This document shows positions 120-20,181 of a DNA stretch of 21,230 bases, in pieces. The position numbers were made by a program, and so were the translations under genes. The notes below the pieces were generated by a model. It saw nothing but the letters and a program-made list of their open reading frames with translations, did no database searches and was not told where the DNA came from. Origin of the DNA: a virus; IMG/VR virus record IMGVR_UViG_3300046010_016325, positions 1 to 21,230 of that record. One strand, 5' to 3'. Position 1 is the stretch's first letter, and every line of letters starts with the position of its first letter.

Positions 120-419
120 TTAGAATCCCAACACGGATTGCAGTGTGGTTATCTTGGGAAGATAAATGGTTTCACCGGCCACGAAGTCCCAGGGTGGTGC
201 TGTGAGCGTGTTGGGATTGCGTTGATAAAACACCCACCAGAGATCCGGCAGATCATACAGGTCAAAGGCCAGCATGTCCGGCCGGTACTGATAGGTTTCG
301 TTGATCTGGAACAATTGATCATCCAATTCCTTGGGGATCACACGATTGACCATGATGTCCAGATAGAACTGGGCATAGGGCGTGGCGAAGTAAGGACTAG
401 TTGAATTGTAAACGGCCAT
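120..419 (-). CDS. 53: Baseplate wedge protein gp53-like (LysM-like)
   Basis: This 99-aa protein starts at ATG 419-417, which overlaps the stop of the upstream gene (TAATG); an in-frame TTG at 425 is less likely. The C-terminal half (RPDMLAFDLYDLPDLWWVFY, then a DFVAGETIYLPK-like segment) has the pattern of the LysM-like domain of T4 gp53-type wedge proteins: a 'pattern RPD-LA-DLY-D-WW', a RNPN segment and a final G-IY-P strand. T4 gp53 is longer (about 196 aa), so this would be a compact version. In T4, gp53 joins baseplate wedges into the hexagonal ring. The stop-start overlap implies coupled synthesis with the preceding structural protein. The assignment rests on remembered motif patterns, not on an alignment. 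Confidence 0.6.
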   Translation of the reverse strand: MAVYNSTSPYFATPYAQFYLDIMVNRVIPKELDDQLFQINETYQYRPDMLAFDLYDLPDLWWVFYQRNPNTLTAPPWDFVAGETIYLPKITTLQSVLGF

Positions 420-3400: not shown

Positions 3401-3736
3401 CAGTGCTTGTTGGCTGGTGGGTGCATTGGTGTAGAGATCCTGCTGTTCTTGGGCATAACGAGCGGCATAGGCATCTTTGTTTCCACCGGCAGCAGCATCA
3501 GCACCGGTGCGGATGTTGGTGAGTTCTTGGCGGAATTCTGGACTGACATTGGTGCCGGTTTCAAAGTTGGCATCAGCATCGGCCAGTTTGTTCACGGCCT
3601 GTTCCTTGGCCCGGGCAGCGGCGTACTGCTCGTAGGAGCCGTCAGCTGGCGTGCTGGCCTGGCCGTTGGTGGTCAAGGCATCGTATTCTGCTTGGCTTAC
3701 TTCTCGTAGTTCACCATTGATATTGATCTGGGGCAT
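419..3736 (-). CDS. Large virion structural protein (baseplate/tail) with acidic repeat linker
   Basis: The 1105-aa protein has three zones. Residues about 1-240 are Ala/Gln/Pro rich and look disordered, followed at about 240-380 by Gly/Thr-rich beta segments resembling YD-type repeats (DGSYEISGADGTFRYDAAG). Residues about 380-840 are extremely acidic, poor in aromatics and contain 31-residue tandem repeats. Residues about 850-1105 look globular (RVRLRLAPLAEYLY, AVIHFFRSVTKMFYGQDA, PPPLVFLQGLGEYQFN, PCVVASFNYVLP, VDYIRAG). This last zone resembles a structural domain of marine T4-like phages, possibly the tail-tube cap/initiator (gp48/gp54) group, but I cannot assign it firmly. A late-promoter motif lies 22 bases upstream of the start. 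The stop overlaps the gp53 start. A sperm-like acidic linker of about 450 residues between two structural ends is unusual. Confidence 0.75.
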   Translation of the reverse strand: MPQININGELREVSQAEYDALTTNGQASTPADGSYEQYAAARAKEQAVNKLADADANFETGTNVSPEFRQELTNIRTGADAAAGGNKDAYAARYAQEQQDLYTNAPTSQQALREELSAPPPTTAPGTVGVGVPQQQGTDGQTIGTLNTTIPGLGQPAGPIVSEPVKGLTAGGLTSGTPVAGVESAPSYPTEDPQIPPPSTEGAGTFQRPPPPPDAAFRAEQAQQENRWIQAAATNPESINDRGSVVVDLGDGRRETINRDGSYEISGADGTFRYDAAGQETSYTTPTIDGFSVTTTTDGVQLTNYTNGPLTTSTITKDGEPISTTVSYDTGPARLTTIETVGGQPVGIIDVAQGGGVTERLVVDANGEVVSEEQSIQTSKQVASEAEQKAIAENQKLREDLIAAKEQTSAGIPLSDTQIAALEEQSQVTAAADAALVEAEQAVAETDPTVLAAGEDPQVDTFVDPVADPVPSLDTVEVIPENVNPAADPEVAVSEAAQTPEAVPAAEIETEAVTELTEEQTAADPEVTEPAIEEVPAAEIDTGPAPLTDEEVAEYQAQTATQVNETGANFQEPFVSDEAAAAEAAFFQENPEAVRAVIDAPPPPEIESETEELDLTLEELEERVAETEADTELTAEEEAADPEITPQDDFVLSAADIDGGDDLDQDPGPGYGDVDEPLDPDILDRANEVEVDPYEDVLGRDLTEEEIQAEDNPVDYDLEEDIDPYNAIADRDLTEEEIQAEDNPIDYSNEVEVDPYEDVLGRDLTEEEIQAEDNPIDYDLENEIDPYSDVEGRSDAEELTDEEIDAARADQQVEFGPDGLTTLSSAEAARQRSTLDRARAQAILQQQRKQANDGDWRVRLRLAPLAEYLYKSDNPGILQPLAVTDGVVFPYTPQITTAYKATYNSYNLTHSNYRGFFYQGSQVEDIQINATFTAQDTAEANYLLAVIHFFRSVTKMFYGQDATSGAPPPLVFLQGLGEYQFNLAPCVVASFNYVLPADVDYIRAGSPNINGTNLLQRRDRQDLPTNPFSSAWTRINNVLKPQGIKKGAIASPPAPPTLGTNRPTYVPTKMEISIILHPMQSREQVSKQFSLKQYANGDLLKGGFW
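1310..1675 (-). repeat. 93-bp (31-aa) in-frame tandem repeat, about 3.9 copies
   Basis: Inside the large structural gene, copies begin at 1675, 1582, 1489 and 1396 (minus strand), the last one diverged and incomplete. The unit reads E-x-E/D-x-DPY..., then DLTEEEIQAEDNP and (I/V)DY. Copies 1 and 3 are nearly identical, giving a 186-bp higher-order period. The period is a multiple of 3, so copy number can change without breaking the frame. The encoded peptide is strongly acidic. Confidence 0.9.
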
Positions 3737-4769: not shown

Positions 4770-5786
4770 ATGACCAACTTATTCCGCAAGACCGCGGTAT
4801 TCACCGACATCCACTTTGGCTTGAAGTCAAACAGTCTTTTACACAACCAAGACTGCGAAAAATTCGTGGATTGGTTCATCGCCACTGCCCAAGAACAGGG
4901 CTGCGAGACCGGCATGTTCCTGGGAGACTGGAGCCATCATCGGGCCAGCATCAACATGCAGACCTTGCAGTACAGCCTGCGTGCTTTGGAAAAACTCAGT
5001 GCAGCATTTGATCGATTCTATTTCATCCCGGGCAATCATGATCTTTATTATCGCGATCGGCGAGACATCTACTCAACTGAATGGGCTCGTCACATACCCA
5101 ACATCATCATCTGCAATGATTGGTTCCAGGACGGTGATGTGATCATAGCTCCTTGGTTGGTGGGCGACGACCATAAAAAGATCTCCAAGATGTCGGCCCG
5201 ATACATGTTTGGTCATTTTGAGTTGCCACACTTCAAGATGAATGCCATGGTAGAGATGCCCGATCATGGCGAAATCGCCGTGGAGCACTTTGGTCATTAT
5301 GATCGTGTGTTTTCTGGGCATTTCCATCTCAGGCAACACAAACGCAACATAACCTATATCGGCAATGCTTTTCCACATAACTTTGCCGACGCAGGCGATG
5401 ATCAGCGAGGTGCCATGATCTTGGAATGGGGGCAGGAACCCGTGTTTGTGGCCTGGCCCGAACAACCTCTGTACAATGTCTGGGATCTCAGTTACGTGAT
5501 CGACAACGCTGATCGGATACTACGACCCAACATGCATGTGCGAGTGCAGCTGGACATTGAAATTTCCTACGAAGAAGCCAACTACATCAAAGAAACGTTC
5601 ATCACCAAGCATGGTCTGAGAGAAATGGCCTTGATGCCAAACAAACGCACGGCTCTGGAAGAAGACATGGCACCCGGGGATGTGAAATTCGAAAGCGTGG
5701 ACCAGATAGTCACTGATCAGATCGTCAAGATCGAATCAGAATTCTACGATCCAAAATTGCTGCTGCAGATCTACCAGGCCTTATGA
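4770..5786 (+). CDS. 47: Recombination endonuclease subunit gp47 (SbcD/Mre11-like)
   Basis: The 338-aa protein matches T4 gp47 in length and has the metallophosphatase motifs in order: D13-x-H15 (FTDIHFG), GD53W, GNH90D91, GH149 and GH184FH186. These residues bind two metals and cleave DNA. With gp46 it forms the Mre11/Rad50-like complex that resects DNA ends for recombination-dependent replication. No clear ribosome site is visible before the ATG; the gene follows gp55 by 12 bases. Its stop overlaps the next ATG (ATGA). In T4, genes 46 and 47 are close together, but here five accessory genes separate them. Confidence 0.92.
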   Translation: MTNLFRKTAVFTDIHFGLKSNSLLHNQDCEKFVDWFIATAQEQGCETGMFLGDWSHHRASINMQTLQYSLRALEKLSAAFDRFYFIPGNHDLYYRDRRDIYSTEWARHIPNIIICNDWFQDGDVIIAPWLVGDDHKKISKMSARYMFGHFELPHFKMNAMVEMPDHGEIAVEHFGHYDRVFSGHFHLRQHKRNITYIGNAFPHNFADAGDDQRGAMILEWGQEPVFVAWPEQPLYNVWDLSYVIDNADRILRPNMHVRVQLDIEISYEEANYIKETFITKHGLREMALMPNKRTALEEDMAPGDVKFESVDQIVTDQIVKIESEFYDPKLLLQIYQAL

Positions 5787-6601
5787 TCTACTGTGTCTGG
5801 TACCCCAGTGGTGGCTTTGGTCATTTTATCAATGCAGTGATTTCTTTTTTTGGCGACAATTTCCAAAGACCCCAGGGTGACTATTCATTTTTAGGTGACG
5901 GTCGTAGCCATGATACGCCGCTGTCTTTGCCCAAATTAGACAAAAAAACTCTTTACAGGTATTCTACGATCAATGTGGATCCCGGTTTGGATCACAGTGT
6001 GCTGATAGACAATGGCATAGAGGACGAAACTGTGGATTTCCTTCATTTCTTTCCACAGGCAAAATTGATAAAAATCTGTTACGATGACAAGACCTGGCCC
6101 ATAGTGGCCCAGACACACATCATCAAGGCCATGCAATCGGATCTGGACAGCGAGATAGCACTGGATATCGATCTCTGGCCCGATGCTGCAGATTGGGCAC
6201 GGAGAGAAAAATATTTCCTTTATCTACGAGACCACGATTTCCGTCATCGATGGAGACCTGACCATTTGTCCGTGCCATTTCATTTGAAATATTTGTTGGA
6301 ATATGATTCCATGATCCAGGAGTTTGATGGTCTTGGTATAACTGTGCGAGGCAGCGAAAAAATCTGGCAACAATGGTTTGCCAGCAATGAAAAATATCTA
6401 TCTCCGGTGTTGCTGGCCCAGGACGTGATCCGATCTATCAACAACGGTCAGAACCGTGATCTCAGTCACATCAAAGATCTATGGACTCAGGCCGTGATTT
6501 ACTATTTCATATGGTTGGAATTTGGTAAGGAAATTCCGCACAATGATTATGCAGATTTTTTCCCTGACACTGATGCCATGACCAGATTCCTGATGTCATG
6601 A
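5783..6601 (+). CDS. Sulfotransferase-like phage protein (P-loop-like N-terminus), function unknown
   Basis: The 272-aa protein overlaps gp47 by ATGA, so it is probably translated by coupling. Its N-terminus, WYPSGGFGHFINAVISFF, resembles the glycine-rich 5'-phosphate-binding loop of sulfotransferases (YP-x-G-G-x-G). A later segment, LEYDSMIQEFDGLGI, and the aromatic-rich body fit the loose family of sulfotransferase-like proteins in marine myoviruses. No downstream 3'-phosphate-binding motif could be confirmed. The first gene of the five-gene insert between gp47 and gp46 shares its N-terminal pattern with the last one (8343-9236). The role could be modification of glycans or small molecules, but this is inferred. 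Confidence 0.6.
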   Translation: MIYCVWYPSGGFGHFINAVISFFGDNFQRPQGDYSFLGDGRSHDTPLSLPKLDKKTLYRYSTINVDPGLDHSVLIDNGIEDETVDFLHFFPQAKLIKICYDDKTWPIVAQTHIIKAMQSDLDSEIALDIDLWPDAADWARREKYFLYLRDHDFRHRWRPDHLSVPFHLKYLLEYDSMIQEFDGLGITVRGSEKIWQQWFASNEKYLSPVLLAQDVIRSINNGQNRDLSHIKDLWTQAVIYYFIWLEFGKEIPHNDYADFFPDTDAMTRFLMS

Positions 6602-7380
6602 ATATATTGACGATAGCCGACGGCTATGGTGACAGCGTGGCCTGTCCGGCCTGGTACCCAGACTACTTTAAGTGGCCGAAATTACTGCAGTTGATGACCA
6701 AAGGTACCACTGTGATCGACCTGTGTCGTTATGGTGCCGGCAACGAGTACATCGTGAACTGTCTCAAACATAATTCCGACCCAGCAGATGTTGTTTTTGT
6801 ACAATGGGCCATGCCAAACAGGCTTGATCTCGTGCTGTGTCATCCTCCTGACGTTTTGCAGCAATGGCAACAGAAAATCCAGGATGATCCGATATATTCA
6901 GACAACGTCATAGGACTTAAAAATGAGAATTGGTGGCTTTCGAGCTCTTCGACGGTTGACTGGGTGCAGACATATCATCACACGATATCATCTCGGCAGC
7001 ACGAGCTAAGATCGCAGATCTGGATCGAATATGCCGATAGATTTTTAGAAAACAAGCCGCATGGTTTTCTGCTGACCTCAAACAGCGAATATCTCAGCGA
7101 AGTACAAATCGACCCTGACAAATGGATCTGGCACCAGCCCTGGAAAGGCATGCATGATTGGAGATTCCACAGTCGATACAAAGATCTCGATCTGGGCTTG
7201 GTACAGCCCATTCCTTTGATACAGTTTGATTTCGTACGAGAATTTTTCATGCCAAAGTTTGATCTTTCCTGGAGAAACGAAAAAGAATTGCAGGCCGTCG
7301 AAAACCTGCTGTTTAAAAAACACAATGCATGCAAAGACAAAAAGCCGCCCAAAGTAAAACAAGGATATCATCCACGGTGA
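6598..7380 (+). CDS. SGNH-hydrolase-like protein, function unknown
   Basis: The 260-aa protein starts in an ATGA overlap with the upstream gene. The pattern of an N-terminal beta strand ending in DGYGDS, then a GAGNEYI segment at about 47-53 and DVVFVQWAMPNRLDL at about 64-78, follows the block order of SGNH/GDSL-type proteins found in marine phages (GDS, G-x-x-N, then a strand with a conserved turn). The usual GDSL serine position is altered or shifted, and no C-terminal DxxH was confirmed, so catalysis is uncertain. The Trp-rich C-terminal half (WIWHQPWKGMHDWRF) is not assignable. The stop overlaps the next gene (GTGA). Confidence 0.5.
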   Translation: MNILTIADGYGDSVACPAWYPDYFKWPKLLQLMTKGTTVIDLCRYGAGNEYIVNCLKHNSDPADVVFVQWAMPNRLDLVLCHPPDVLQQWQQKIQDDPIYSDNVIGLKNENWWLSSSSTVDWVQTYHHTISSRQHELRSQIWIEYADRFLENKPHGFLLTSNSEYLSEVQIDPDKWIWHQPWKGMHDWRFHSRYKDLDLGLVQPIPLIQFDFVREFFMPKFDLSWRNEKELQAVENLLFKKHNACKDKKPPKVKQGYHPR

Positions 7381-7844
7381 ATTGGCGACGTATACAATTG
7401 GTGGATGAGCTATGTGATCAAGATCAGACGATATTACGACTCGTCAATGGTCATCCGGTGCGATTAAATGGAAATCATCGAGGTTTTGATCAATTCATCA
7501 CACAAGATCAGGATAGCAATTTTGCCCTGGTATTGCTTACCGATCCGGCATGGATCAGTGAAATATTCCAACAGTTGGACGATTGGATCGATGATAAAAT
7601 TGATTTCGTTTACATAGGAATCAATAGATATTGCATACTCGGAAACGACACAATCACGGAGTATCATGATAACGGCATTGGGCGAGGACAACAGCTTGTG
7701 AATGTGCTACGTGATTTTTTGCTGGGAAAAGGTCTTGTCATGAAGACTTCGGGTACCTTTGACGACGATCTGGGACGATACTTTAATTTTGTACAACCGT
7801 TAACTTGGATTTATTGCGAACGTGAGACAGACCGCAGTCACTGA
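7377..7844 (+). CDS. Hypothetical phage protein (155 aa)
   Basis: The frame is open from 7329, but a GTG at 7377-7379 makes a GTGA overlap with the previous stop, just like its neighbours, and is the preferred start; AAGGAT lies about 14 bases upstream. The protein has alternating hydrophobic strands (FALVLL, FVYIGI) and an acidic body, suggesting a soluble alpha/beta fold. No catalytic motif or known family is recognised. It overlaps the next gene by 23 bases. The chain of overlaps indicates one polycistronic unit from gp47 to gp46. Confidence 0.6.
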   Translation: MNWRRIQLVDELCDQDQTILRLVNGHPVRLNGNHRGFDQFITQDQDSNFALVLLTDPAWISEIFQQLDDWIDDKIDFVYIGINRYCILGNDTITEYHDNGIGRGQQLVNVLRDFLLGKGLVMKTSGTFDDDLGRYFNFVQPLTWIYCERETDRSH

Positions 7845-8373
7845 TACCAATCGTATAGACTTTTACCGGCAGCTATATCCGGTTCAAAAAGACACGATTG
7901 AAGAACTCATTGATATTTCCGCCGTGGACGATCCAATCATGGCCATAGACTGTTGCGGCTGGCATTACAAAGATCTTTTTGACAAACAAATCATCATGGT
8001 TGAAACGATAAAGACTGCACACCAATTCACACTTGACAAAGAGAAATTTGATCGGCTGATAGATGATCGCACAGACGGAAAAATTGTTTGGCCCAAGATT
8101 CAATGTACACGACCAGCATTGCTGATGGACCGATCGCCCTTGCTTAGATATAAAACTGTGCCGCAGATAAGTGATTTTCTTTCAGACCTGATCTCAAACT
8201 ACCATCCAACAAAGATTTTTCTTCGTGGCAGTCTGTTGACTGTGGATGATTTCAGGCTGGATGATAGATTTTATTCCTGGCAAAACTTCAGGCTCAACGG
8301 ATTCGTGGTGACCAAATTCTTTTATGATACCAACAGGCTCACATGGCAGATTTCATTAAAATCTCGAATCTGA
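7822..8373 (+). CDS. Hypothetical phage protein (183 aa, GTG start)
   Basis: The start is GTG at 7822-7824, inside the end of the previous gene, with GAACGTG context and no strong ribosome site. The protein contains IMAIDCCGWHYKDLF, a central WPKIQCTRPALLMDRSPLLR block and a strand-rich end (KIFLRGSLLTVDDFRLDD). It reads like a soluble alpha/beta protein with an ordered fold, but no family or active site is recognised. It has no signal peptide or membrane segment. Its end overlaps the next gene's start by 31 bases. Position inside the coupled gp47-gp46 insert suggests joint expression with the sulfotransferase-like neighbours. Confidence 0.6.
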   Translation: MRQTAVTDTNRIDFYRQLYPVQKDTIEELIDISAVDDPIMAIDCCGWHYKDLFDKQIIMVETIKTAHQFTLDKEKFDRLIDDRTDGKIVWPKIQCTRPALLMDRSPLLRYKTVPQISDFLSDLISNYHPTKIFLRGSLLTVDDFRLDDRFYSWQNFRLNGFVVTKFFYDTNRLTWQISLKSRI

Positions 8374-9236
8374 TACCATTGGACTTTGTGCCTGGTACGC
8401 ATGGTCATTTCTTGGAATATCTATTGAATCGAGGATTTGGTCATGTTAATTGCGGGTTTTCTCCTTTCAGCGACACGGGCACTAGCCATCGCTGGCCGGA
8501 AACCTATCGGGCACGCCCTGTCAAATGCCGACACTGGAGCGAGAAATACTCCGAGCAGCTCAGAGCCTACGATCGTGCTATCCGCATCGTGTTTGATCAA
8601 GATGATCTACTGCTGGTCAACAGTCTTTGTTGGTTGCGTGCGGCCGATCAAAATCTTGACAACAACCAATTGCACATCGACACAGTCAAAAAACTCAACA
8701 CCGAATTTTATAGTACGGTTTTAGAAGAGATATATCATGCCTATCCATTTCTAGACAGAAATGATAGAGACATACCTAGATATGTGTTGAGAGAGTTTTT
8801 TAAATTTGGGTTCGCTGATCCTTGCAAAAACGGCATGTGGATCAGACTAAATCATCTGCTAGATTTTCCCTTGCAGGATGATTTCAAGATCAAATTAAAA
8901 CAAATCTATGACCTTCCCAGCTTGTATGCTGTGCTAGATGATATACAAGATTGGTCAAAGATGACCTTCCATTTTGGCGACTGGATTCCGGTACTCCACG
9001 GAGAATTCCTATCAAAAATAAAATACTTCAACGACAAAGATCACTGTGATCAGATCATCCAAAACATAGTCAATCAAAACGATTGCGACATTCCATTACT
9101 GAGTCTGTTCCAAGAAAGCTACATCAACGGCAATTTAGAACGGATCTATCGGAAAGAAATGCCTTTTTGTCAGCATGACTATTTTAAAAACACAAAAGAT
9201 GTGTTAGAATATATAAAAATCGCACCCAACCTATGA
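8343..9236 (+). CDS. Sulfotransferase-like phage protein (PGTHGHFLEY motif), function unknown
   Basis: The 297-aa protein has near its N-terminus LDFVPGTHGHFLEYLLNRGF, a glycine-rich loop after a beta strand, as in a group of marine-phage proteins related to sulfotransferases. The body is rich in Tyr, Phe, Trp and Asp, with helices such as YVLREFFKFGF and LHGEFLSKIKYF. The start at ATG 8343 overlaps the upstream gene by 31 bases; a start nearer the upstream stop at 8373 cannot be ruled out. The stop overlaps the gp46 ATG (ATGA). Together with 5783-6601 it brackets the accessory insert, and the two may be distant relatives. The substrate is unknown. Confidence 0.55.
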   Translation: MADFIKISNLIPLDFVPGTHGHFLEYLLNRGFGHVNCGFSPFSDTGTSHRWPETYRARPVKCRHWSEKYSEQLRAYDRAIRIVFDQDDLLLVNSLCWLRAADQNLDNNQLHIDTVKKLNTEFYSTVLEEIYHAYPFLDRNDRDIPRYVLREFFKFGFADPCKNGMWIRLNHLLDFPLQDDFKIKLKQIYDLPSLYAVLDDIQDWSKMTFHFGDWIPVLHGEFLSKIKYFNDKDHCDQIIQNIVNQNDCDIPLLSLFQESYINGNLERIYRKEMPFCQHDYFKNTKDVLEYIKIAPNL

Positions 9237-10996
9237 TACAGATACGAGACCTCACGGTAAAGAATTTCATGAGCGTGGGCAATGCCACGCAGGCCATAAA
9301 CTTTGATCGCAGAGACCTCACCTTGGTCCTGGGTGAAAACTTGGATCTGGGCGGTGATGGCAGTCGCAATGGCACAGGCAAGACCACCATCATCAATGCT
9401 CTCAGTTATGCTCTCTATGGCCAGGCCCTGACCAACATCCGACGAGACAATCTGGTCAATAAAACCAACGGCAAAAACATGTTGGTCGGTTTAGATTTCA
9501 CTGTTAACGGACGAGACTATCGCGTGGAGAGAGGTCGCAAGCCCAATGTGCTAAAGTTTTATGTCAACAACGAAGAACAGTCGGCCGAAGACGACAGCCA
9601 AGGTGATTCTAGAGAAACGCAGGAAGCCATAGAGTCAGTCTTGGGCATGACACACGACATGTTCCGTCATGTGCTGGCCTTGAACACCTACACCGAACCA
9701 TTCTTGAGTCTCAAGGCCACGGATCAACGGATCATCATCGAACAGTTGCTGGGCATTACCTTGTTGAGCGAGCGTGCGGAACGTATCAAAGAACTCAATC
9801 GCGTGACCAAAGAAAGCATCACCGCAGAAGAGATGCGGATACGTGCGGTACAAGAAGCCAATCGTCGCATAGAAGAACAGATCGAAAGTCTAAAAAAACG
9901 TCAGACTCTGTGGCTGGCTAAACAGCGAGATGACTGCGACAAGTTGCAGCAGGCCATCGCGGCCTTGGAGCACATCGACATTGACGCAGAGATACAGGCA
10001 CATCGAGATCTTGATACCTATCATGCCCGCAAGAAAACCATTGACGATCACAATCGATACATCCGGCAGATCGACACCGAACAGGCCAAGATTGTCAAGG
10101 AACAGGACAAAATCAAGAGAGAACTAGCAGCCTTGGATGACCATCAGTGCTATGCCTGTGGCCAGAACATACACGATGCCAAACAGGATGAGATCCGGAA
10201 AAACAAACAGGCTGCATTGCAAGAAACCGCTGTCCAATATCTTGCCAATGACACACAGCGAACCGAGCATGTGAACGAACTAGATGACCTTGGTGAACTG
10301 GGCACAGCACCTACAGTGTTCTATGACGATCTGGAACAGGCCCTGGGTCACAAGAACAGCGTGGATGGTCTACGCCGTGATCTCGAGCACCGATCCGCTG
10401 AAACCGACACCTACGGTGAACAGATTGAGGACATGCAGGGCCAGGCCCTGCAGACAGTGAGTTATGATGAGTTAAACGAACTCACCCGGCTGCAGGAACA
10501 TCAGGACTTCTTGTTGAAGTTGCTCACAAACAAAGATTCCTTCATACGCAAAAAGATCATCGAACAGAACTTGAGTTATCTCAACAATCGTCTCACACAC
10601 TATCTGGACCGTATCGGCCTGCCACACCAGGTCATATTCCAAAACGACCTAACCGTGGAGATCACGGAACTGGGCCGTGATTTGGACTTTGATAATTTGA
10701 GTCGAGGCGAACGAAATCGCCTGATACTAAGTATGAGTTGGGCATTCCGAGATGTGTGGGAAAGTCTGTATCACCCCATCAATGTATTATTCATCGACGA
10801 ATTGGTAGATTCCGGCATGGACACACAGGGCGTGGAGAACAGCCTAGCCTTGTTGAAAAAGATGAGCAGAGAACGACACAAAAGCATCTGGCTCGTGAGC
10901 CACAGAGATGAACTGGCCGGGCGTGTGGAAAATATCCTGCGAGTGATCAAAGAAAACGGATTCACTTCCTACAATACCGATATTGATCTAGCATGA
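9233..10996 (+). CDS. 46: Recombination endonuclease subunit gp46 (SbcC/Rad50-like ATPase)
   Basis: The 587-aa protein is near the T4 gp46 length (560 aa). It has a Walker A loop GSRNGTGKTT at about 43-52, a long coiled-coil-like middle (about 180-450) with a zinc-hook CYAC at 306-309, a signature motif LSRGERNR at about 489-496, and a Walker B strand NVLFIDELVDSGMD at about 517-530 followed by a His switch (WLVSHRDEL). It pairs with gp47 to process DNA ends. Its ATG overlaps the previous stop (ATGA). The stop in turn overlaps the ATG of a 17-codon mini-ORF. Confidence 0.93.
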   Translation: MIQIRDLTVKNFMSVGNATQAINFDRRDLTLVLGENLDLGGDGSRNGTGKTTIINALSYALYGQALTNIRRDNLVNKTNGKNMLVGLDFTVNGRDYRVERGRKPNVLKFYVNNEEQSAEDDSQGDSRETQEAIESVLGMTHDMFRHVLALNTYTEPFLSLKATDQRIIIEQLLGITLLSERAERIKELNRVTKESITAEEMRIRAVQEANRRIEEQIESLKKRQTLWLAKQRDDCDKLQQAIAALEHIDIDAEIQAHRDLDTYHARKKTIDDHNRYIRQIDTEQAKIVKEQDKIKRELAALDDHQCYACGQNIHDAKQDEIRKNKQAALQETAVQYLANDTQRTEHVNELDDLGELGTAPTVFYDDLEQALGHKNSVDGLRRDLEHRSAETDTYGEQIEDMQGQALQTVSYDELNELTRLQEHQDFLLKLLTNKDSFIRKKIIEQNLSYLNNRLTHYLDRIGLPHQVIFQNDLTVEITELGRDLDFDNLSRGERNRLILSMSWAFRDVWESLYHPINVLFIDELVDSGMDTQGVENSLALLKKMSRERHKSIWLVSHRDELAGRVENILRVIKENGFTSYNTDIDLA

Positions 10997-11046
10997 ACAT
11001 TCTAATTATCGGTCAGAAAGAGCGGCATGCAGCAATCTCCTTTTGA
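10993..11046 (+). pseudogene. 17-codon mini-ORF, possible remnant or leader (MNILIIGQKERHAAISF)
   Basis: The ATG overlaps the gp46 stop in an ATGA arrangement, exactly the coupling used by real genes in this operon. The peptide begins like a nucleotide-binding beta strand (MNILIIG) but ends at TGA 11044. The true radical SAM start at 11027 lies inside it in another frame. It may be the stump of a gene cut off by insertion of the radical SAM module, a coupling leader, or chance. Confidence 0.35.
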
Positions 11047-11977
11047 ACTAGAAAACATCACGACATTGCATATCGAAACCACCACGGTTTGTAACGCTGC
11101 GTGTCCGCAGTGTGCAAGAGAAATTCCAGAATTCTACAATGACCGCCACGATCGATATCATCTCAGCATGCAACAACTGATAGATACATTTGGAGATGAA
11201 TTTTTGCGTAAACTACAAAAACTACAGATTTGTGGCGTATTTGGTGATCCAGCTGCAGGACAGCATACCATGGATATTGTGCAATGGTTTCGTAGATACA
11301 ATCCATTATCTGCAATTTCAATACACAGCAACGGTGGTCTGCGGACCGAGGCTTGGTGGATTAAACTTGCCAAACTTCTACGACATCCTAGAGATCATGT
11401 CACATTCAGCATAGATGGTTTAGAAGATACCAATCATCTCTATCGAAAACAGGTGAAATGGTCTGTTTTAATGAGCAATGTTCGGGCATTTGTAGCAGCC
11501 GGTGGGCCCGCACACTGGGACATGTTGGCATTCGCACACAACGAGCATCAAATTGATCAATGCGAATCTCTAGCGAGAGATATGGGATTCCGATATTTCA
11601 GAGTCAAGGTCAGTCGCCGCAATCAAACCGAGTTCACTCCCAAGGTAGCAGTAAGTCCGCAGTGGCAAACTATGTTGATCCCAAAAACCATGAAAGAACA
11701 CCCGGATTTTGGGTACAAAAACAAATCTAATCTATGCCCTGTGGTACATGAACGCAGCCTGTATGTGGCAGCTACCGGAGAAGTCCTGCCATGTTGCCAA
11801 CTGGGCAAAGAAATTTTTTCAAAAACTGATGAATTAAAATCTCTGATAACCACAACAGATTTTCAGGGCATAGTTGACCGGTGGACGGATCGGCCTTATA
11901 GTACCTGTGTACAATGTATGGGAGACTCATGGCACACCTCAGTAAAAAAAGAAGTAAAATTTGATTATGGCACTTGA
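11027..11977 (+). CDS. Radical SAM enzyme with SPASM-like C-terminus, copy 1
   Basis: The 316-aa protein has the radical SAM cluster motif C22-x3-C26-x2-C29 (CNAACPQC) that binds the 4Fe-4S cluster and S-adenosylmethionine. Further motifs are a GDP-type segment (GVFGDPAAGQHT), an SNGG strand and FSIDGLEDTNHLYRK. The C-terminal part has extra cysteines (LCPVV, VLPCC, TCVQC), as in SPASM/twitch domains that bind additional clusters and often act on peptides or proteins. The ribosome site AAAGAG lies 5-8 bases before the ATG. It is a paralogue of the next gene. The substrate is unknown; peptide modification is a family-based guess. Confidence 0.85.
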   Translation: MQQSPFELENITTLHIETTTVCNAACPQCAREIPEFYNDRHDRYHLSMQQLIDTFGDEFLRKLQKLQICGVFGDPAAGQHTMDIVQWFRRYNPLSAISIHSNGGLRTEAWWIKLAKLLRHPRDHVTFSIDGLEDTNHLYRKQVKWSVLMSNVRAFVAAGGPAHWDMLAFAHNEHQIDQCESLARDMGFRYFRVKVSRRNQTEFTPKVAVSPQWQTMLIPKTMKEHPDFGYKNKSNLCPVVHERSLYVAATGEVLPCCQLGKEIFSKTDELKSLITTTDFQGIVDRWTDRPYSTCVQCMGDSWHTSVKKEVKFDYGT

Positions 11978-12001
11978 TCGTTTGAGCATCCAAGGTTGCT
12001 G

Positions 12002-13120
12002 ATGAAATCTTTTGATTTTCAGATTATCAACGAATACCAGTTGGAAATAACCAGTTATTGTAATGCTGCTTGTCCGCAGTGTCCACGAAACAACAACGGA
12101 ACTGGTATCAATCACAGGATGCCGCTGTGCCATCTTGATCGTTGGATCATAGATCGTGCATTTACAAAAGATCTTTGCAGTAAACTGAGACAGATCTTCT
12201 TCTGTGGAAGCTACGGGGATCCTATCATGCATCCTGATTTCTTGGATGTGTTGCGTGACTTTCGCAAAAAAAATCCCAAATTGTGGTTGTATTTCCATAC
12301 CAACGGTGGCGTACACGAACCTGAGTACTGGGAGGAAATCGCTGGTATCATGGCCGGATATGGGCAGATAGATTTTGGCATCGACGGATTGGAAGATACT
12401 TTGCATTTGTACAGACGCAACGTAAAATACAGCAAAGTCATGGCCAATGCCCGGGCATTCATACAAGCAGGCGGCCGAGCTCAGTGGAATTTCATTGTGT
12501 TCCAACACAATCAACATCAAGTTGAGCAGGCACAAAAGTTAGGCAAGGAATTGGGATTTCTCAATGTGTTGATTAGAAAAACAGGAAGATTTTTCAATCA
12601 TCGTACCATAGAGGAAATGACATCGTGGCCGGTAGGAGATCAATATGTGCTGGAACCTCCGACGTTGCCAGAATATCGCAATCAAAGCATGCTGTTTTTG
12701 CCAGATCTTAAAAAACAGTACGCAGACATCCGAGATTACTTTGACGCCACTGAGATTCGCTGTGACGCCATGATCGGTCCAAAGGTTGTGATCAATGCCG
12801 AGGGGCTGGTGTTACCTTGTAATTTTTTCAATCATAACTTGTATGATCGCAGATTCTATGAATCTGATGTATTGCCGGAATCCAATGCATTGAGCACAGT
12901 GGATGGAAAGAACCAGGTAAGAACATTTTTAGAAAGTTACGACTTAGATAGTTTTAATATACATTTGCACAGTCTTGAAGAAATTTTTCAAAATCCCATG
13001 TGGACGGATTTGGTTGCCAGTTGGGAGAAAACTCTGGTTCAAGGCCGCTTGTTTGAATGTGCCATGACCTGCGGCGAAAAAATCACCAAGGTATGGGATC
13101 AAGGAGGAAGCAAAAGATGA
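12002..13120 (+). CDS. Radical SAM enzyme with SPASM-like C-terminus, copy 2
   Basis: The 372-aa protein starts at ATG 12002 (AAGG upstream) rather than the in-frame TTG 11996. It has C20-x3-C24-x2-C27 (CNAACPQC), YGDPIMHPDF, HTNGG and FGIDGLEDTLHLYRR, all aligned with copy 1, so the pair arose by duplication or shared ancestry. The C-terminal half is longer and has cysteines in IRCDAM, VLPCNFF and ECAMTCGEK, again SPASM-like. The difference in the C-terminal region suggests different substrates or partners. A strong ribosome site AAGGAGG (13101-13107) near its end serves the next gene, which overlaps by ATGA. Confidence 0.85.
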   Translation: MKSFDFQIINEYQLEITSYCNAACPQCPRNNNGTGINHRMPLCHLDRWIIDRAFTKDLCSKLRQIFFCGSYGDPIMHPDFLDVLRDFRKKNPKLWLYFHTNGGVHEPEYWEEIAGIMAGYGQIDFGIDGLEDTLHLYRRNVKYSKVMANARAFIQAGGRAQWNFIVFQHNQHQVEQAQKLGKELGFLNVLIRKTGRFFNHRTIEEMTSWPVGDQYVLEPPTLPEYRNQSMLFLPDLKKQYADIRDYFDATEIRCDAMIGPKVVINAEGLVLPCNFFNHNLYDRRFYESDVLPESNALSTVDGKNQVRTFLESYDLDSFNIHLHSLEEIFQNPMWTDLVASWEKTLVQGRLFECAMTCGEKITKVWDQGGSKR

Positions 13121-13701
13121 AATATATGATAACCGGTGGAAGCCGAGGTCTAGGCCAATCTTTGGTCGAGCATTTTAATGGTGACAGTTACTGTCGGCAA
13201 AATGGTTACGACATCACCAAAGACATTGATCGATTGGTCGAGGCCAGTTTTGACTATGACGTTTTTATCAACAATGCATTTGATGGTCCGTTCCACGAGC
13301 CCTGGGCCAACTTTGCACAAACCAAACTGCTTTATGCTGTGGCGGATGCCTGGCGAAGTAAAAACAAAACAGGGTATATCATCAATATTGGCAGTGTGGG
13401 CAGCGAATCTGTAGTGGCCCCGGATCCTGCATTTGAGACCTATCGAGTAAGCAAGTCGGCTTTGAAAGCACACAGCTTGCAATGGACTCGTGCCTTCAAA
13501 GAAAACAAAGTATTGTTCCGGACCAGTTTGCTCACGGTTGATCGACTGGACACAGAGTTGACTCGCAGTCGGCCTAGTTGGACCGGCAATGGACTTGACA
13601 GCAATGATATCTGTCAGTACATCGAGCTAATTATTAGATCTAAATCAAATACCTGCATCGAAGAAATTGTATCTTGGGTGAATTTAGATCATAAACACTA
13701 A
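13117..13701 (+). CDS. Short-chain dehydrogenase/reductase (SDR)
   Basis: The frame opens upstream at 13057, but ATG 13117 overlaps the previous stop (ATGA) and sits 9 bases after AAGGAGG, so it is the start. The 194-aa protein has the NAD(P)-binding TGGSRGLG at 6-13, NNAF in place of NNAG, an IGSVGS serine segment and Y-x3-K (YRVSKSAL). All catalytic elements are present, although it is short for an SDR (usually about 250 aa). It likely reduces or oxidises a carbonyl or sugar substrate. It follows the radical SAM pair in one coupled unit, so it may work on the same substrate. Confidence 0.85.
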   Translation: MKYMITGGSRGLGQSLVEHFNGDSYCRQNGYDITKDIDRLVEASFDYDVFINNAFDGPFHEPWANFAQTKLLYAVADAWRSKNKTGYIINIGSVGSESVVAPDPAFETYRVSKSALKAHSLQWTRAFKENKVLFRTSLLTVDRLDTELTRSRPSWTGNGLDSNDICQYIELIIRSKSNTCIEEIVSWVNLDHKH

Positions 13702-15941: not shown

Positions 15942-16372
15942 GTGATTGGTCCTAGTATTTCAAATCCTTTGATGTCCAGCATATATGGTTCCACTGATTC
16001 AAAATACATCCACTGGAATCCACGCTCGCGATACACTGCGCACTCTGTCTCTAGGCTGAGGATGCCCAGTCTCAACCGCGGATTGCGGTAATTCCAGGCA
16101 AAATGATCGCTGAGTACCGAGTGATCGCCCCATCGACGCAACATGCTCCAAGCCACTAAACATCCTTGGTCTTGATAGCCAATCACATCTGTACCAGATT
16201 CTGTGAACCTCTCAGGAATCATGGGTACCACACTCAAGAATCGTTTGTGGCGGCAGTAGTCTTTGTAAATGGCAAGCAGTTTTGACACCGGGGGATCTTG
16301 GAACAGTACCCAATCTGTGTTGGGCTTGTAATGTGTCTTGGCAAGATTGATGCGACCAAACTGCCAGCTCAT
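15938..16372 (-). CDS. GNAT-fold acyl- or aminoacyl-transferase-like protein (Ate C-terminal-like)
   Basis: The 144-aa protein ends with a segment like that of arginyl-tRNA-protein transferases (Ate/Bpt): YRNPRLRLGILSLETECAVY, then RGFQWMYFESVEPYMLDIKG. In that family this is the C-terminal GNAT-fold half, with R-L-G-x-x-x-L, helix, a GY/YLG-type strand and a basic loop. Ate proteins are longer (about 230 aa) and have an N-terminal Cys cluster that is absent here, so this would be a GNAT-only version. The substrate is unknown. ATGA overlaps join it to both neighbours. Pairing with an arginine-using amidinotransferase is suggestive but unproven. Confidence 0.5.
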   Translation of the reverse strand: MSWQFGRINLAKTHYKPNTDWVLFQDPPVSKLLAIYKDYCRHKRFLSVVPMIPERFTESGTDVIGYQDQGCLVAWSMLRRWGDHSVLSDHFAWNYRNPRLRLGILSLETECAVYRERGFQWMYFESVEPYMLDIKGFEILGPIT

Positions 16373-16866
16373 CGTCGCGGATCCTCCCGGCCTTCAAACA
16401 AAATTTGGAGATAGTCTTCAGGCCAGTCCTTGTAGTAGCCTTTTTCTGAGACCATGCGGGCATGTGCATTGAGTTTGGCCAGAGGCTGTACAAAAGCGAT
16501 GGCCCAAGTGCCTTGGTTCATGGTTACGCCCTGCACCACTTCAGGTGATCCAGGATGATCTGCTAGAGCAAAAAGATCTCTGGCTCGCAGGAATCCTTGA
16601 TTCACAGCAGTGATCTGCTGATTGAACTGCTCGGGTTCAAACTCTGTGGGATCATAGACCAAGGCCACCACGTCCAGTTCCCCGATGTTGATGTGCTGTA
16701 GGTCTGTGTAGGGATCTATGTGTCCGGGTCTGATCTCAAACTTGCCTTCCAGTCTAGCACGGCGTGCGTAGGGGCACGGAGCCCAGCCCGACAGTGCAGG
16801 ATGCGGACGTTCTACGAAGCCGGTGATCCAGGCCAAGATGTCCAATTGTGCTTGTTCAAAATTCAT
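16369..16866 (-). CDS. DUF1415-like protein with CPYAR motif, function unknown
   Basis: The 165-aa protein begins with WITGFVERPHPALSGWAPCP followed by YARRARLEG. The order of WI-x-x-x-V, an NLCPFA-like CPYA block, a DVVALVYDP strand, an F-x-x-x-NQGF helix and a VQPL-x-KLN segment resembles DUF1415 proteins, although distantly. The Cys and Pro are typically conserved and may be functional. The ATG at 16866-16864 overlaps the stop of the upstream small ORF by one or a few bases, and the end overlaps the GNAT-like gene by ATGA. It heads the amidinotransferase cassette. The family call is tentative. Confidence 0.5.
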   Translation of the reverse strand: MNFEQAQLDILAWITGFVERPHPALSGWAPCPYARRARLEGKFEIRPGHIDPYTDLQHINIGELDVVALVYDPTEFEPEQFNQQITAVNQGFLRARDLFALADHPGSPEVVQGVTMNQGTWAIAFVQPLAKLNAHARMVSEKGYYKDWPEDYLQILFEGREDPRR

Positions 16867-17042
16867 TAAAAGAAAGGCAGTCCAGATTTTTTGGTTGTTT
16901 CAAGATTTTCTTTGATTATTTCAGACACGATGGATCTTTCGCCATGGCTGAGATGCATGGATTCAGTGTAAGTGAGCCCGCCTCTCATGTACCACACAAA
17001 TTTCAATGCTTCCTGTCGGATATCTTTGCACTCTTTTTCCAT
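16866..17042 (-). CDS. Small conserved protein downstream of gp26, probable -1 frameshift extension
   Basis: From ATG 17042 it gives 58 aa (GTG 17051 would give 61). The core EALKFVWYMRGGLTYTESMH, the LSHGERSIVSEIIKENLETT helix and the ending KKSGLPFF match a short protein that I recall next to gp26 in T4-like marine phages. Neither start has a good ribosome site. The frame is open back to the slippery site inside gp26 (17102-17096), so a -1 shift would fuse 76 extra residues to gp26. This is the layout of tail-assembly chaperones such as lambda G/GT. The protein is rich in helices and has one Cys. Independent translation is the alternative. Confidence 0.6.
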   Translation of the reverse strand: MEKECKDIRQEALKFVWYMRGGLTYTESMHLSHGERSIVSEIIKENLETTKKSGLPFF

Positions 17043-17072
17043 GCCATCCACGATCTGGGTGATGCGATCAGA

Positions 17073-17102
17073 GTCCGAGGTCAGGAGTCGGACACGAAAA
17101 AA
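17073..17102 (-). promoter_or_regulatory. Putative -1 ribosomal frameshift site (slippery T TTT TTC plus hairpin)
   Basis: In the gp26 frame the codons are CGT TTT TTC, giving the heptamer T TTT TTC at 17102-17096. Two bases later GTCCGA (17093-17088) pairs perfectly with TCGGAC (17078-17073) over a 9-base loop that contains the gp26 stop TGA (17083-17081). Slipping back one base leads straight into the open frame of the small downstream protein. Confidence 0.55.
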
Positions 17103-17923
17103 CGTGCGTTGTCCAAGGTAAACACCTGGTCGTATTTGTGTTGGCAGTTGGGGCAGACGATATCCAATGGTTTGAGTTCGCTGACTTCTCTCATCTGTAC
17201 CATGTGATCTTTTATTTTGTTGAAAGAAGTACGATCACAATTTTTGATGAATTCTAAAACCTGTTGCGGTTCTTGCACCACTGCGGACGGAGTGCGTATT
17301 TCTCTGATGCTCTGTGCCAGTACATTCACAGTTAGCTCCATTATTTTTTTCATCATGCGGTTTAGCTGTTGTACTTTGCTTTCGTCGGTGGCTTCAGCAT
17401 CGGACAAGATCTGTGCTGTTTTCTGCTGTTCAAACTGCAATATACTGTTGGCAGTGATTTCTTGATAATTCAAAGGTCGGAAAAACAGCGTGAGATCACC
17501 GATGACCAGAGGTTGAGAGTAATCTGCTGACTGTATCTTGTCTATCACTAATCTTAGATCAAGTCCAAATTGGCTTTCAGTCTTGCATGATGGACAGGTG
17601 GTATCTATGTCCATGGCATGACCGTAACTGGCGATGCGTATAGCCACCAAGATGGTATCAAGATCACTGGCAGGTATATGCCAGGCATCCAGGATGTTGG
17701 GCACACAACTCTGCACCACTGAAGTCACTGCTTCACCATTGAACAAGGCATCGGGCGTGCGATAAGTGATTTCGTCCATGGCAGTCATGGGATACACTCC
17801 CAACTCACCATTGGCCGGTAGATCTATGCTGCCTTCGGGCCAACCTTGCCCTTTGCTGGGCAAACGGATGTAGATAGCGGGTTGCCGGAAATATTGGCTG
17901 AGAGGATTGGGATTTTTTGGCAT
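17081..17923 (-). CDS. 26: Baseplate hub/tail assembly protein gp26-like
   Basis: The frame opens at 17998, but ATG 17923-17921 (MPKNPNPLSQYF) is the likely start: the upstream part crosses the promoter region. The 280-aa protein resembles the T4 gp26 (T4_baseplate) family of marine phages. It has two CxxC pairs, C110-P-S-C113 and C257-P-N-C260, probably forming a zinc site. Its central region has GELGVYPMTAMDEITYRTPD and a long helical part. T4 gp26 is 208 aa. The last codons contain a slippery heptamer that would extend it into the next frame. A late-like motif, CATAAGTA, lies 26 bases upstream. It sits back-to-back with the tape-measure gene, which fits a chaperone role. Confidence 0.7.
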   Translation of the reverse strand: MPKNPNPLSQYFRQPAIYIRLPSKGQGWPEGSIDLPANGELGVYPMTAMDEITYRTPDALFNGEAVTSVVQSCVPNILDAWHIPASDLDTILVAIRIASYGHAMDIDTTCPSCKTESQFGLDLRLVIDKIQSADYSQPLVIGDLTLFFRPLNYQEITANSILQFEQQKTAQILSDAEATDESKVQQLNRMMKKIMELTVNVLAQSIREIRTPSAVVQEPQQVLEFIKNCDRTSFNKIKDHMVQMREVSELKPLDIVCPNCQHKYDQVFTLDNARFFVSDS

Positions 17924-17982: not shown

Positions 17983-20181
17983 ATGGATGAAGAAGCACTA
18001 GCCAGAGCCTTTGAGAAATTCCAAGCAGGTGTTGATCTAACCGACCAAGACCTCAAGAAACTTGGTCGCGGAACCAGCGAGTTTGGCAAAAATCTCGTTC
18101 AAGCAGGCCTTGATGTATCCAAGACCTTTGGTAAGTTTGCCCAGGGATTAGCCGAAGGTGCCACAGATTTCAAAGCACTGAATCCAGTGATCGACGGTGT
18201 GACGGGTGCCTTGGGCGACATGGCCAAGACCCTGCCCTATGTTGGCAATGCTGTAGCTGGTTCTCTTAAATTGGTTGCTGAAGGCAGCAAATTCCTGATT
18301 GGGCAAATACAACAGGCCGCAGATTCATTCCAAGAAATCAGCAAAATAGGCGGACTCACTGCCCAGGGCATGTCAGGACTGCGTGAGCAGTTCTTGAGAT
18401 CCGGTCAGACCCTGCAAGGTTTCCAGAAAACAGTCAGTGCCAATGCCCAGGCCTTGGCCATGTTCAGAGGCACAGTGGGATCCGGTGCCGAAGACTTCAG
18501 CCGTATAGTTGGCGGCATCGTTGACAGCAATCTCGGGGATGAACTACGCAGGATTGGTTACACAGCCGATGAGATCGGCGAGGCCACCGCAGGTTACATC
18601 GCTCAGCAGACTCGTCTGGGCTATGCACAGAACAAAACCCAAGCACAGTTGATCGCGGGCAGCAAACAGTATGCGGATGAATTGGATATTCTAGCCAGAT
18701 TGACAGGTCAGAGCCGAGAAGCCCTGCAGAAACAACAGGATGCTGCCCTCAGCGAAGGCAGGTTCCGTGCCACACTGGATACCATGAACGAAGGCACAGC
18801 CAAAGCCTTGTTGGATTTCCAAAGCCGTATCAATGCTGTGAGTCCAGAAGTGGCACAAGGTATCAGAGACATCACTTCGGGATTTACCAACAGTGATGCA
18901 GCTATCAAACTGTTCAATAGCACTGCCGGCGAAGCAGGCAATATCATTGAACGTTTGAAAAACAATGAAATTTCACAGGACGAAGCCACTCGCCAGTTGC
19001 AGCAAGCTATCCAAGGCAATATAGAGACAAATCGTGCCTATACCCAGGCTGTGGGTGATGGTACCAATACTTTTATCAAGTACAATCAGGCCAGTGATTT
19101 TGCTCGGGCCGAATTGATAGATGGTCAGTTACGTGCCAAGAAAGCTCAGTCAGAAGCCCAGGCCGGCACCGATGATCTAACCAATCAAACTGTAGATGCA
19201 CAAAAATCTCTTGAACAGATGGGACGCAATCTCAACAACATTGCCTTCCAGGCATTGCCTACAGCAAGTAAAGCTGTATCGGCCTTTGCCGATGTGCTGA
19301 ATCAAGCAGTGGGAAAGTTCAGCAAAGAACTTGGCATCAAACCTGCTGCTGGAGGTGGTGGCGGGGGAGGTGGTGCTGCCGCAGGTGGTGGAGGCAGACC
19401 CCATACTAGTTCACTGGGCGGCAGAATTACCGCCGCGGGTGCGGGTGCTGCTACAGGTGCTGCGATAGGATCAGTGGTTCCGGGGATAGGCACAGCATTT
19501 GGCGGACTAGTAGGTGGTATAGCAGGATATTTTGGTTATGAAATGGCTGCCGGTGGCCCAAAACCTGATGATGTCTTAGACTTCACAGGTCAGAGCGGTG
19601 GTCGTGCCAACTTTGATGAGTTGGATTCAGATTTAAAAAGAAGAGTTTTGGCAGCCGGACAGCAATACCTAGAAGCCACGGGCAAGAAATTACAGGTAAA
19701 CAGTGCCAAACGCGATACCGAAGATCAAAAAAGATTATATGATGAAACAGTGAAAGCCGGGAGACCCGGGGTGGGTCCAACTGGAATGGCCGTGGCCAAA
19801 CCGGGAACAAGTGCTCATGAACTTGGACGTGCCATTGATATACAGAATTATCGCGACAGCCAGGCAGTAGCAGCCATGAACAGCCAAGGACTATTCCAAA
19901 CTGTGCCTAAAGATCCTGTGCATTTCCAGGTGCAAGCGGCCAACGGCGGAGTGTTTGCTGGACCCAGATCCGGATATGCGGCCACGCTACATGGCACCGA
20001 AGCTGTGGTACCCTTGCCTGATGGCAAGACCATTCCAGTGGCCATGCCCGAACTGGCATCTGGACTCCAAGACCAGATGAGCATGATGGGTGCCCAATTG
20101 GTAGCACTGGAAAATCTCGTGGCCATCATGCGTGATCAGACCACTATCAGCACCAAGATACTTCAAGCATCCAACAACTAG
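17983..20181 (+). CDS. Tape-measure-like tail protein with a C-terminal M15 (VanY-like) peptidase domain
   Basis: The 732-aa protein is mostly helical and Ala/Gln rich for residues 1-450, with several small helices of tape-measure type. A Gly-rich stretch (about 455-475) and a hydrophobic Ala/Gly segment (about 483-520, GAAIGSVVPGIGTAFGGLVG) follow. A D-Ala-D-Ala carboxypeptidase-like domain comes next: NSAKRDTEDQ, then S-x-H612-x-x-G-x-A-x-D619 (SAHELGRAID) and DPVH647F, the three zinc ligands. The end, GPRSGYAATLHGTEAVVPLP, is a common end of tape-measure proteins. It likely helps set tail length and locally cuts peptidoglycan during entry. It is shorter than many tape measures and has no ATP or nucleic-acid motif. 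Confidence 0.75.
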   Translation: MDEEALARAFEKFQAGVDLTDQDLKKLGRGTSEFGKNLVQAGLDVSKTFGKFAQGLAEGATDFKALNPVIDGVTGALGDMAKTLPYVGNAVAGSLKLVAEGSKFLIGQIQQAADSFQEISKIGGLTAQGMSGLREQFLRSGQTLQGFQKTVSANAQALAMFRGTVGSGAEDFSRIVGGIVDSNLGDELRRIGYTADEIGEATAGYIAQQTRLGYAQNKTQAQLIAGSKQYADELDILARLTGQSREALQKQQDAALSEGRFRATLDTMNEGTAKALLDFQSRINAVSPEVAQGIRDITSGFTNSDAAIKLFNSTAGEAGNIIERLKNNEISQDEATRQLQQAIQGNIETNRAYTQAVGDGTNTFIKYNQASDFARAELIDGQLRAKKAQSEAQAGTDDLTNQTVDAQKSLEQMGRNLNNIAFQALPTASKAVSAFADVLNQAVGKFSKELGIKPAAGGGGGGGGAAAGGGGRPHTSSLGGRITAAGAGAATGAAIGSVVPGIGTAFGGLVGGIAGYFGYEMAAGGPKPDDVLDFTGQSGGRANFDELDSDLKRRVLAAGQQYLEATGKKLQVNSAKRDTEDQKRLYDETVKAGRPGVGPTGMAVAKPGTSAHELGRAIDIQNYRDSQAVAAMNSQGLFQTVPKDPVHFQVQAANGGVFAGPRSGYAATLHGTEAVVPLPDGKTIPVAMPELASGLQDQMSMMGAQLVALENLVAIMRDQTTISTKILQASNN

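Follow-up and report, generated by a model that had tools for sequence, protein, structure and literature searches.

A conserved slip site predicted to join gp26 to its downstream reading frame by -1 frameshifting in a jumbo-like T4-like phage

The window analysed here is a stretch of DNA of 21,230 nucleotides (positions 1 to 21,230 of the IMG/VR virus record IMGVR_UViG_3300046010_016325), and the phage that it comes from belongs to an uncultivated, divergent, jumbo-like lineage of T4-like phages, with 33% identity to Atu_ph07. The gene for gp26 lies on the minus strand, where it is followed by a small reading frame, and its neighbour on the other side is a divergent gene on the plus strand. 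The features of this locus are as follows.

17081..17923, minus strand: gp26, the zero-frame product of 280 aa, putative short form of the tail assembly chaperone (TAC-N), based on the open frame, PF12322, phrog_150 and relatives
17081..17083, minus strand: stop codon TGA of gp26, which would be passed over after the slip
17096..17102, minus strand: slippery heptamer T TTT TTC, predicted -1 slip site, correctly phased at all 64 junctions
16866..17102, minus strand: -1 frame from slip site to stop, putative C-terminal domain of the long form (TAC-C), open and conserved in relatives
16866..17051, minus strand: small ORF of 61 aa with a GTG start, as a gene finder would call it, with no ribosome site and no conserved start
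17073..17093, minus strand: 6-bp hairpin GTCCGA / TCGGAC after the slip site, present in the sequence, with no consensus structure and a doubtful stimulatory role
17983..20181, plus strand: divergent neighbour of gp26, probable tape measure protein of 732 aa with a VanY-type peptidase domain, from weak matches

The gp26 protein is matched by PF12322 (T4_baseplate) with an E-value of 1e-17 (65 bits against a cut-off of 24.5) and by phrog_150 (baseplate hub) with an E-value of 1e-18. These are the sole significant matches in our Pfam and PHROGs scans, which returned no lambda-type chaperone family, and gp26 is therefore not classed as a homologue of lambda gpG. The AlphaFold2 model of gp26 is confident (mean pLDDT 82.6), and its comparison with a viral structure library leads to T4-like baseplate hub proteins with a best TM-score of 0.90. 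Foldseek against solved structures gave nothing with an E-value below 1.3, and VIA-align gave no clear match.

The final codons of gp26 are CGT TTT TTC GTG TCC GAC TCC TGA. The heptamer is present in the gp26 frame as originally predicted, and its phase fits tandem -1 slippage, although its distance from the end of the gene, which had been given as eight codons, is in fact 7 codons for TTT TTC when the stop is counted. The -1 frame, FFRVRLL...GLPFF, is open to 16866 as had been claimed. It consists of 78 codons including the two slip-site Phe codons, plus the stop TAA, and so extends gp26 beyond Phe276 by 76 residues to a protein of 352 aa; the translation after the slip is FFRVRLLTSDSDRITQIVDGMEKECKDIRQEALKFVWYMRGGLTYTESMHLSHGERSIVSEIIKENLETTKKSGLPFF, ending at 16868-16866. 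In-frame heptamers of the canonical class are common in the window, with 19 of them among the 20 main ORFs (6720 codons). The one in gp26 is alone in combining a position no more than 20 codons from the gene end with a -1 frame that is open well beyond the stop, since the other end-proximal heptamers have at most 6 open codons in the -1 frame. Because such heptamers are common, a single genome is only suggestive and it is the comparison of relatives that decides.

A scan of IMG/VR yielded 51 relatives, 49 of them with a complete junction. The junction set used for comparison contains 64 junctions in 38 clusters at 85% protein identity, and its members are IMG/VR relatives, jumbo phages (for example Atu_ph07 and 121Q), cyanophages, KVP40, phiM12 and others. 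In all 64 junctions the slip site is in frame and the -1 frame is open beyond the gp26 stop, the heptamer being T TTT TTC in 62 and T TTT TTT in 2. All 49 IMG/VR relatives have an in-phase TTTTTTC followed by G and a -1 frame open beyond the stop. The gp26 stop is located three codons earlier in two sequences (L046 and L047), where the slip site and the open -1 frame are still kept, and the contig ends before the -1 frame does in L047 and in L026. The same layout is present in the cultured jumbo phages Atu_ph07, Phosso, PA5oct, XaC1, BF, 121Q, Vibrio 2.275.O and SCTP-2 at 25-33% protein identity. T TTT TTC is also found in P-SSM2, S-PM2, KVP40 and phiW-14, and T TTT TTT in HTVC008M and phiM12. 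Further scans of IMG/VR with distant gp26 sequences gave no additional relatives, and no relative was found in GTDB contigs, hence no prophage copies were seen there.

A conserved run of T could in principle do nothing more than encode a conserved Phe-Phe pair, the open -1 frame being accidental. The Phe-Phe is invariant in the gp26 sequences compared, and T4 gp26, whose C-terminal end is EFFELL, still retains it. However, T4 gene 26 ends GAG TTC TTT GAG TTA CTA TAA, without a slip site and with TTC TTT for its Phe-Phe, whereas all single-copy phages tested use TTT TTC or TTT TTT after a T. The first Phe codon is TTT in all junctions, with a rough chance of 10^-9.6 when clusters are treated as independent, though they are related. 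The codon before the Phe pair is CGT, AAT, ACT, AGT, TCT, GAT, CAT or TAT among the 38 clusters, and thus encodes Arg, Asn, Thr, Ser, Asp, His or Tyr, while its third base is always T. A C would be synonymous in each of these codons, and gene-wide the share of T among third-position T or C is 23-91%; the rough chance is 10^-10, again with related clusters treated as independent. That the preceding residue varies while its third base stays T argues strongly against a protein-level cause and for selection on the RNA. Moreover, the -1 proteins are conserved, with 15-77% identity among them over their length, and we consider that coding for Phe-Phe has next to no chance of being the whole explanation.

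The same fusion could be made if RNA polymerase slipped on the six-T run and added a base to some messages. Bacterial examples of such slippage on runs of T or A are known, and the T run here is conserved. On the other hand, six bases are short for transcriptional slippage, a run of eight T was found in one phage only (HTVC008M) among those inspected by eye, and the phase that is conserved (T TTT TTC and not any T run) is the one needed for tandem tRNA slippage. Transcriptional slippage is therefore very improbable as the source of the fusion, and slippage of the ribosome is the reading that we follow below.

Conservation of the protein encoded by the -1 frame begins at the slip site and extends through the overlap with the gp26 end (FFRxRLL), a motif whose L6 is invariant across 25 diverse sequences. 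In tblastn searches with the -1 domain, Phosso and Atu_ph07 match from residue 1. AlphaFold2 models the domain as small and helical with a mean pLDDT of 84.8. phrog_18291, a family with no assigned function, begins at residue 15 of the -1 domain (L056 3364-3543, L057 3328-3537), which identifies it as a truncated piece of the predicted frameshift product.

These observations bear on whether the small ORF might be a separate protein, with ribosomes re-initiating after the gp26 stop or with its translation coupled to that of gp26. Most public records of the relatives do annotate a hypothetical protein here (121Q gp595, BF gp247, Phosso 319), and an ATG lies close to the stop in some of the sequences. 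However, the start positions differ between phages and are not accompanied by ribosome sites. No start in the first 25 codons of the window -1 frame is served by a Shine-Dalgarno match of at least 4 nt, in agreement with the earlier claim that the small ORF lacks a good ribosome site of its own, and such a start is present in 4 of 36 sequences overall, with none conserved among the relatives. In addition, the protein conservation of the -1 frame reaches upstream of any start, up to the slip site, and a separate protein would leave the invariant TTTTTT with NNT before it unexplained. A separately translated protein is thus unlikely, gp26 and the small downstream gene are almost certainly one gene, and the small ORF is best not handled as a separate gene. 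The TAA of the -1 frame (16866-16868, minus strand) overlaps the ATG of the next gene as TAATG. This gene (16369-16866) belongs to phrog_28122, for which PHROG assigns no function, and the overlap would couple its translation to that of the fusion.

The 6-bp stem downstream of the slip site, with arms GTCCGA (17093-17088) and TCGGAC (17078-17073) and the gp26 TGA within its loop, is present as described in the original prediction, but it does not behave as a conserved stimulator. RNAalifold over 22 relatives gave no consensus pair, and the stem forms in 54.5% of cells, close to the 49.7% in shuffles (25-36% when slid). The fold of a 73-nt segment at the site has a z-score of -0.3. For the 40 nt downstream, the mean z-score is -0.77 compared with -0.08 in controls (-0.9 for the window sequence), and this low mean is owed to the cyanophages (-5.1 and -3.8) and a few jumbo phages. 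An upstream Shine-Dalgarno-like stimulator was found in 6 of 36 sequences, compared with 14% in controls, and is not conserved. Unlike the window lineage, the cyanophages P-SSM2 (L071 2184-2240) and S-PM2 (L072 2181-2237) have strong hairpins directly after the slip site, which are candidates for a cyanophage-specific stimulator. It may therefore be that stimulators vary by lineage, or that the site needs little help.

T4 genes 26 and 51 both belong to PF12322 and lie on opposite strands. At its C-terminus, gp51 has an additional part that matches phrog_634 ('baseplate hub assembly catalyst'), and the FF-R junction is where its end (VFKLLVNPDEI...MIPAERGFVLKLIEK) aligns with the -1 domains. 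In P-SSM2, phiM12, KVP40 and HTVC008M, the -1 peptides match phrog_634 from their second residue with E-values of 2e-29 to 3e-19, so gp51 looks like the frameshift product of these phages made from a gene of its own. Judging from these sequence matches, the -1 domain in several groups is the C-terminal domain of T4 gp51, and for this reason the short chaperone is best identified with gp26 and the long one with the fusion. The -1 domain of the window has no direct match to phrog_634. It occupies the same position as the end of gp51, after the FF-R junction, and its hhalign comparison with the gp51-type group (E-value 9e-5, probability 59%) is suggestive only.

The number of PF12322 copies follows the presence of the slip site. 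Phages with the site have one copy, as in the window, and all single-copy relatives tested have both the slip site and the open -1 frame (the copy in SCTP-2 was missed by the Pfam model and recovered with a profile of the -1 domain), whereas T4 and RB49 have two copies, both without the site. In Campylobacter phage CP81 (L079, L082) two PF12322 frames lie in tandem and the slip site is missing, so that frameshifting seems to have given way to two genes a second time, independently. We lean slightly towards the view that slippage at U UUU UUC is ancestral in the T4-like superfamily as a whole, and that gene duplication with in-frame fusion has removed it on more than one occasion. The losses would then have occurred within the Straboviridae, where KVP40 has one frameshifted gene and T4 and RB49 have two, and apparently in the Campylobacter phages. 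If this is true, such pairs allow one to ask why two genes replace a programmed frameshift.

Taken as a whole, the relatives, which span the T4-like superfamily, keep the heptamer and a -1 frame open across the overlap and have no conserved independent start, which supports the original proposal of a programmed -1 frameshift with a reading like that of lambda G/GT. We infer the slippage itself, its rate and the chaperone role, and on the sequence comparison it is very probable that gp26 serves as the short tail assembly chaperone in this T4-like phage and that a -1 frameshift at T TTT TTC yields a 352-aa long form. The majority of ribosomes would terminate at the TGA and release the 280-aa gp26. 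In a minority at T TTT TTC, the two Phe-tRNAs would re-pair one base back (a single tRNA species decodes both UUU and UUC), and the slipped ribosomes would read the -1 frame to 16866, producing the 352-aa fusion whose last 76 residues would be the small helical domain. If the parallel with lambda gpG/gpGT holds, many short and few long copies may coat the tape measure protein, the C-terminal domain may recruit tail-tube subunits, and the short and long forms would then leave.

In lambda, the short form G far exceeds the fusion GT, both are absent from virions, and the system binds the tape measure and tail tube proteins. PMC5009743 describes how the tape measure protein is coated by the short form while the few long copies recruit the tail tube protein, and cites Xu et al. 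2004 for gpG/gpGT and its counterparts in long-tailed phages. The locus in the window shares with lambda a -1 slip, here predicted, near the end of the short chaperone gene, an open downstream frame and a C-terminal extension. However, no sequence relation was found between the two, and the slip site is T TTT TTC here but G GGA AAG in lambda. The arrangement also differs. The original prediction placed gp26 next to the tape measure gene as in lambda, and gp26 does adjoin a probable tape measure gene, although the two are divergent and on opposite strands, whereas the lambda chaperone is upstream of the tape measure gene in one operon. The assignment of this neighbour (17983-20181) comes from weak matches, namely to the tape measure family phrog_23574 (E-value 8e-5) and to the virion protein beside gp26 of PA5oct (22% identity, E-value 7e-5). 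PF02557 (VanY) matches its residues 561-627 with an E-value of 2e-8. This VanY / D-Ala-D-Ala carboxypeptidase domain recalls tape measure proteins with built-in wall hydrolases.

The abstract of Vladimirov, Gautam and Davidson (2022, Virology 566:9-15) reportedly describes conserved frameshifting in several T4-like groups, and the use of two separate genes, 26 and 51, by the T4 group. The gene in the window resembles these gp26/gp51-type chaperones in the PF12322 family, the class of slip site and, as the profile comparison above suggests, the -1 C-terminal domain, and differs in its origin from the divergent lineage described above; with T4 itself it has PF12322 in common, T4 having two genes on opposite strands and no slip site. 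A 2016 review describes wide conservation of the G-T frameshift 'except T4' (PMC5009743), and the work on gp26/gp51 accounts for this exception. The 2022 paper is the source given in PMC10885494 for separate short and long chaperone genes in some T4-like phages, and in PMC12846349 for poly-T frameshift signals in T4-like chaperone genes. According to PMC12846349, the short chaperone gene of Pakpunavirus and Vandenendeviridae (phage Adele) carries an invariant poly-T slip motif, GTTTTT, at its end, and a so-called 'hypothetical gene' turns out to be its -1 extension; these are other families than that of the window phage, with the poly-T slip motif in common. Our literature search on frameshifting in jumbo phage chaperones found no paper. 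The idea itself, which the original prediction did not know as a standard annotation, is not new, as T4-like tail assembly chaperone genes and their frameshifting were published in 2022, judging from the citing passages of PMC10885494 and PMC12846349. The present finding is thus well supported yet no discovery of a new kind. It adds many lineages to those that keep the frameshift site, settles the annotation of the pair listed publicly as 'baseplate hub' and 'hypothetical protein' in the jumbo T4-like phages examined, explains phrog_18291, and lends support to the published assignment of T4 gp26 and gp51 as tail assembly chaperones and not as structural parts of the hub.

Some other genes of the window deserve mention. 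A protein of 1105 aa (419-3736, minus strand) contains acidic repeats of the type DPYEDVLGRDLTEEEIQAEDNPIDY and has a C-terminal match to the virion structural protein family phrog_12050 (E-value 6e-46). Five consecutive unassigned ORFs (5783-9236, plus strand) are located between the genes for gp47-like (4770-5786) and gp46-like (9233-10996) nuclease subunits. Beside the gp46-like gene, the region 11027-13701 (plus strand) holds two adjacent genes with similar radical-SAM-like N-termini (the Pfam match was examined for 11996-13120 only) together with a short-chain dehydrogenase-like gene, and these genes perhaps form a small modification pathway.
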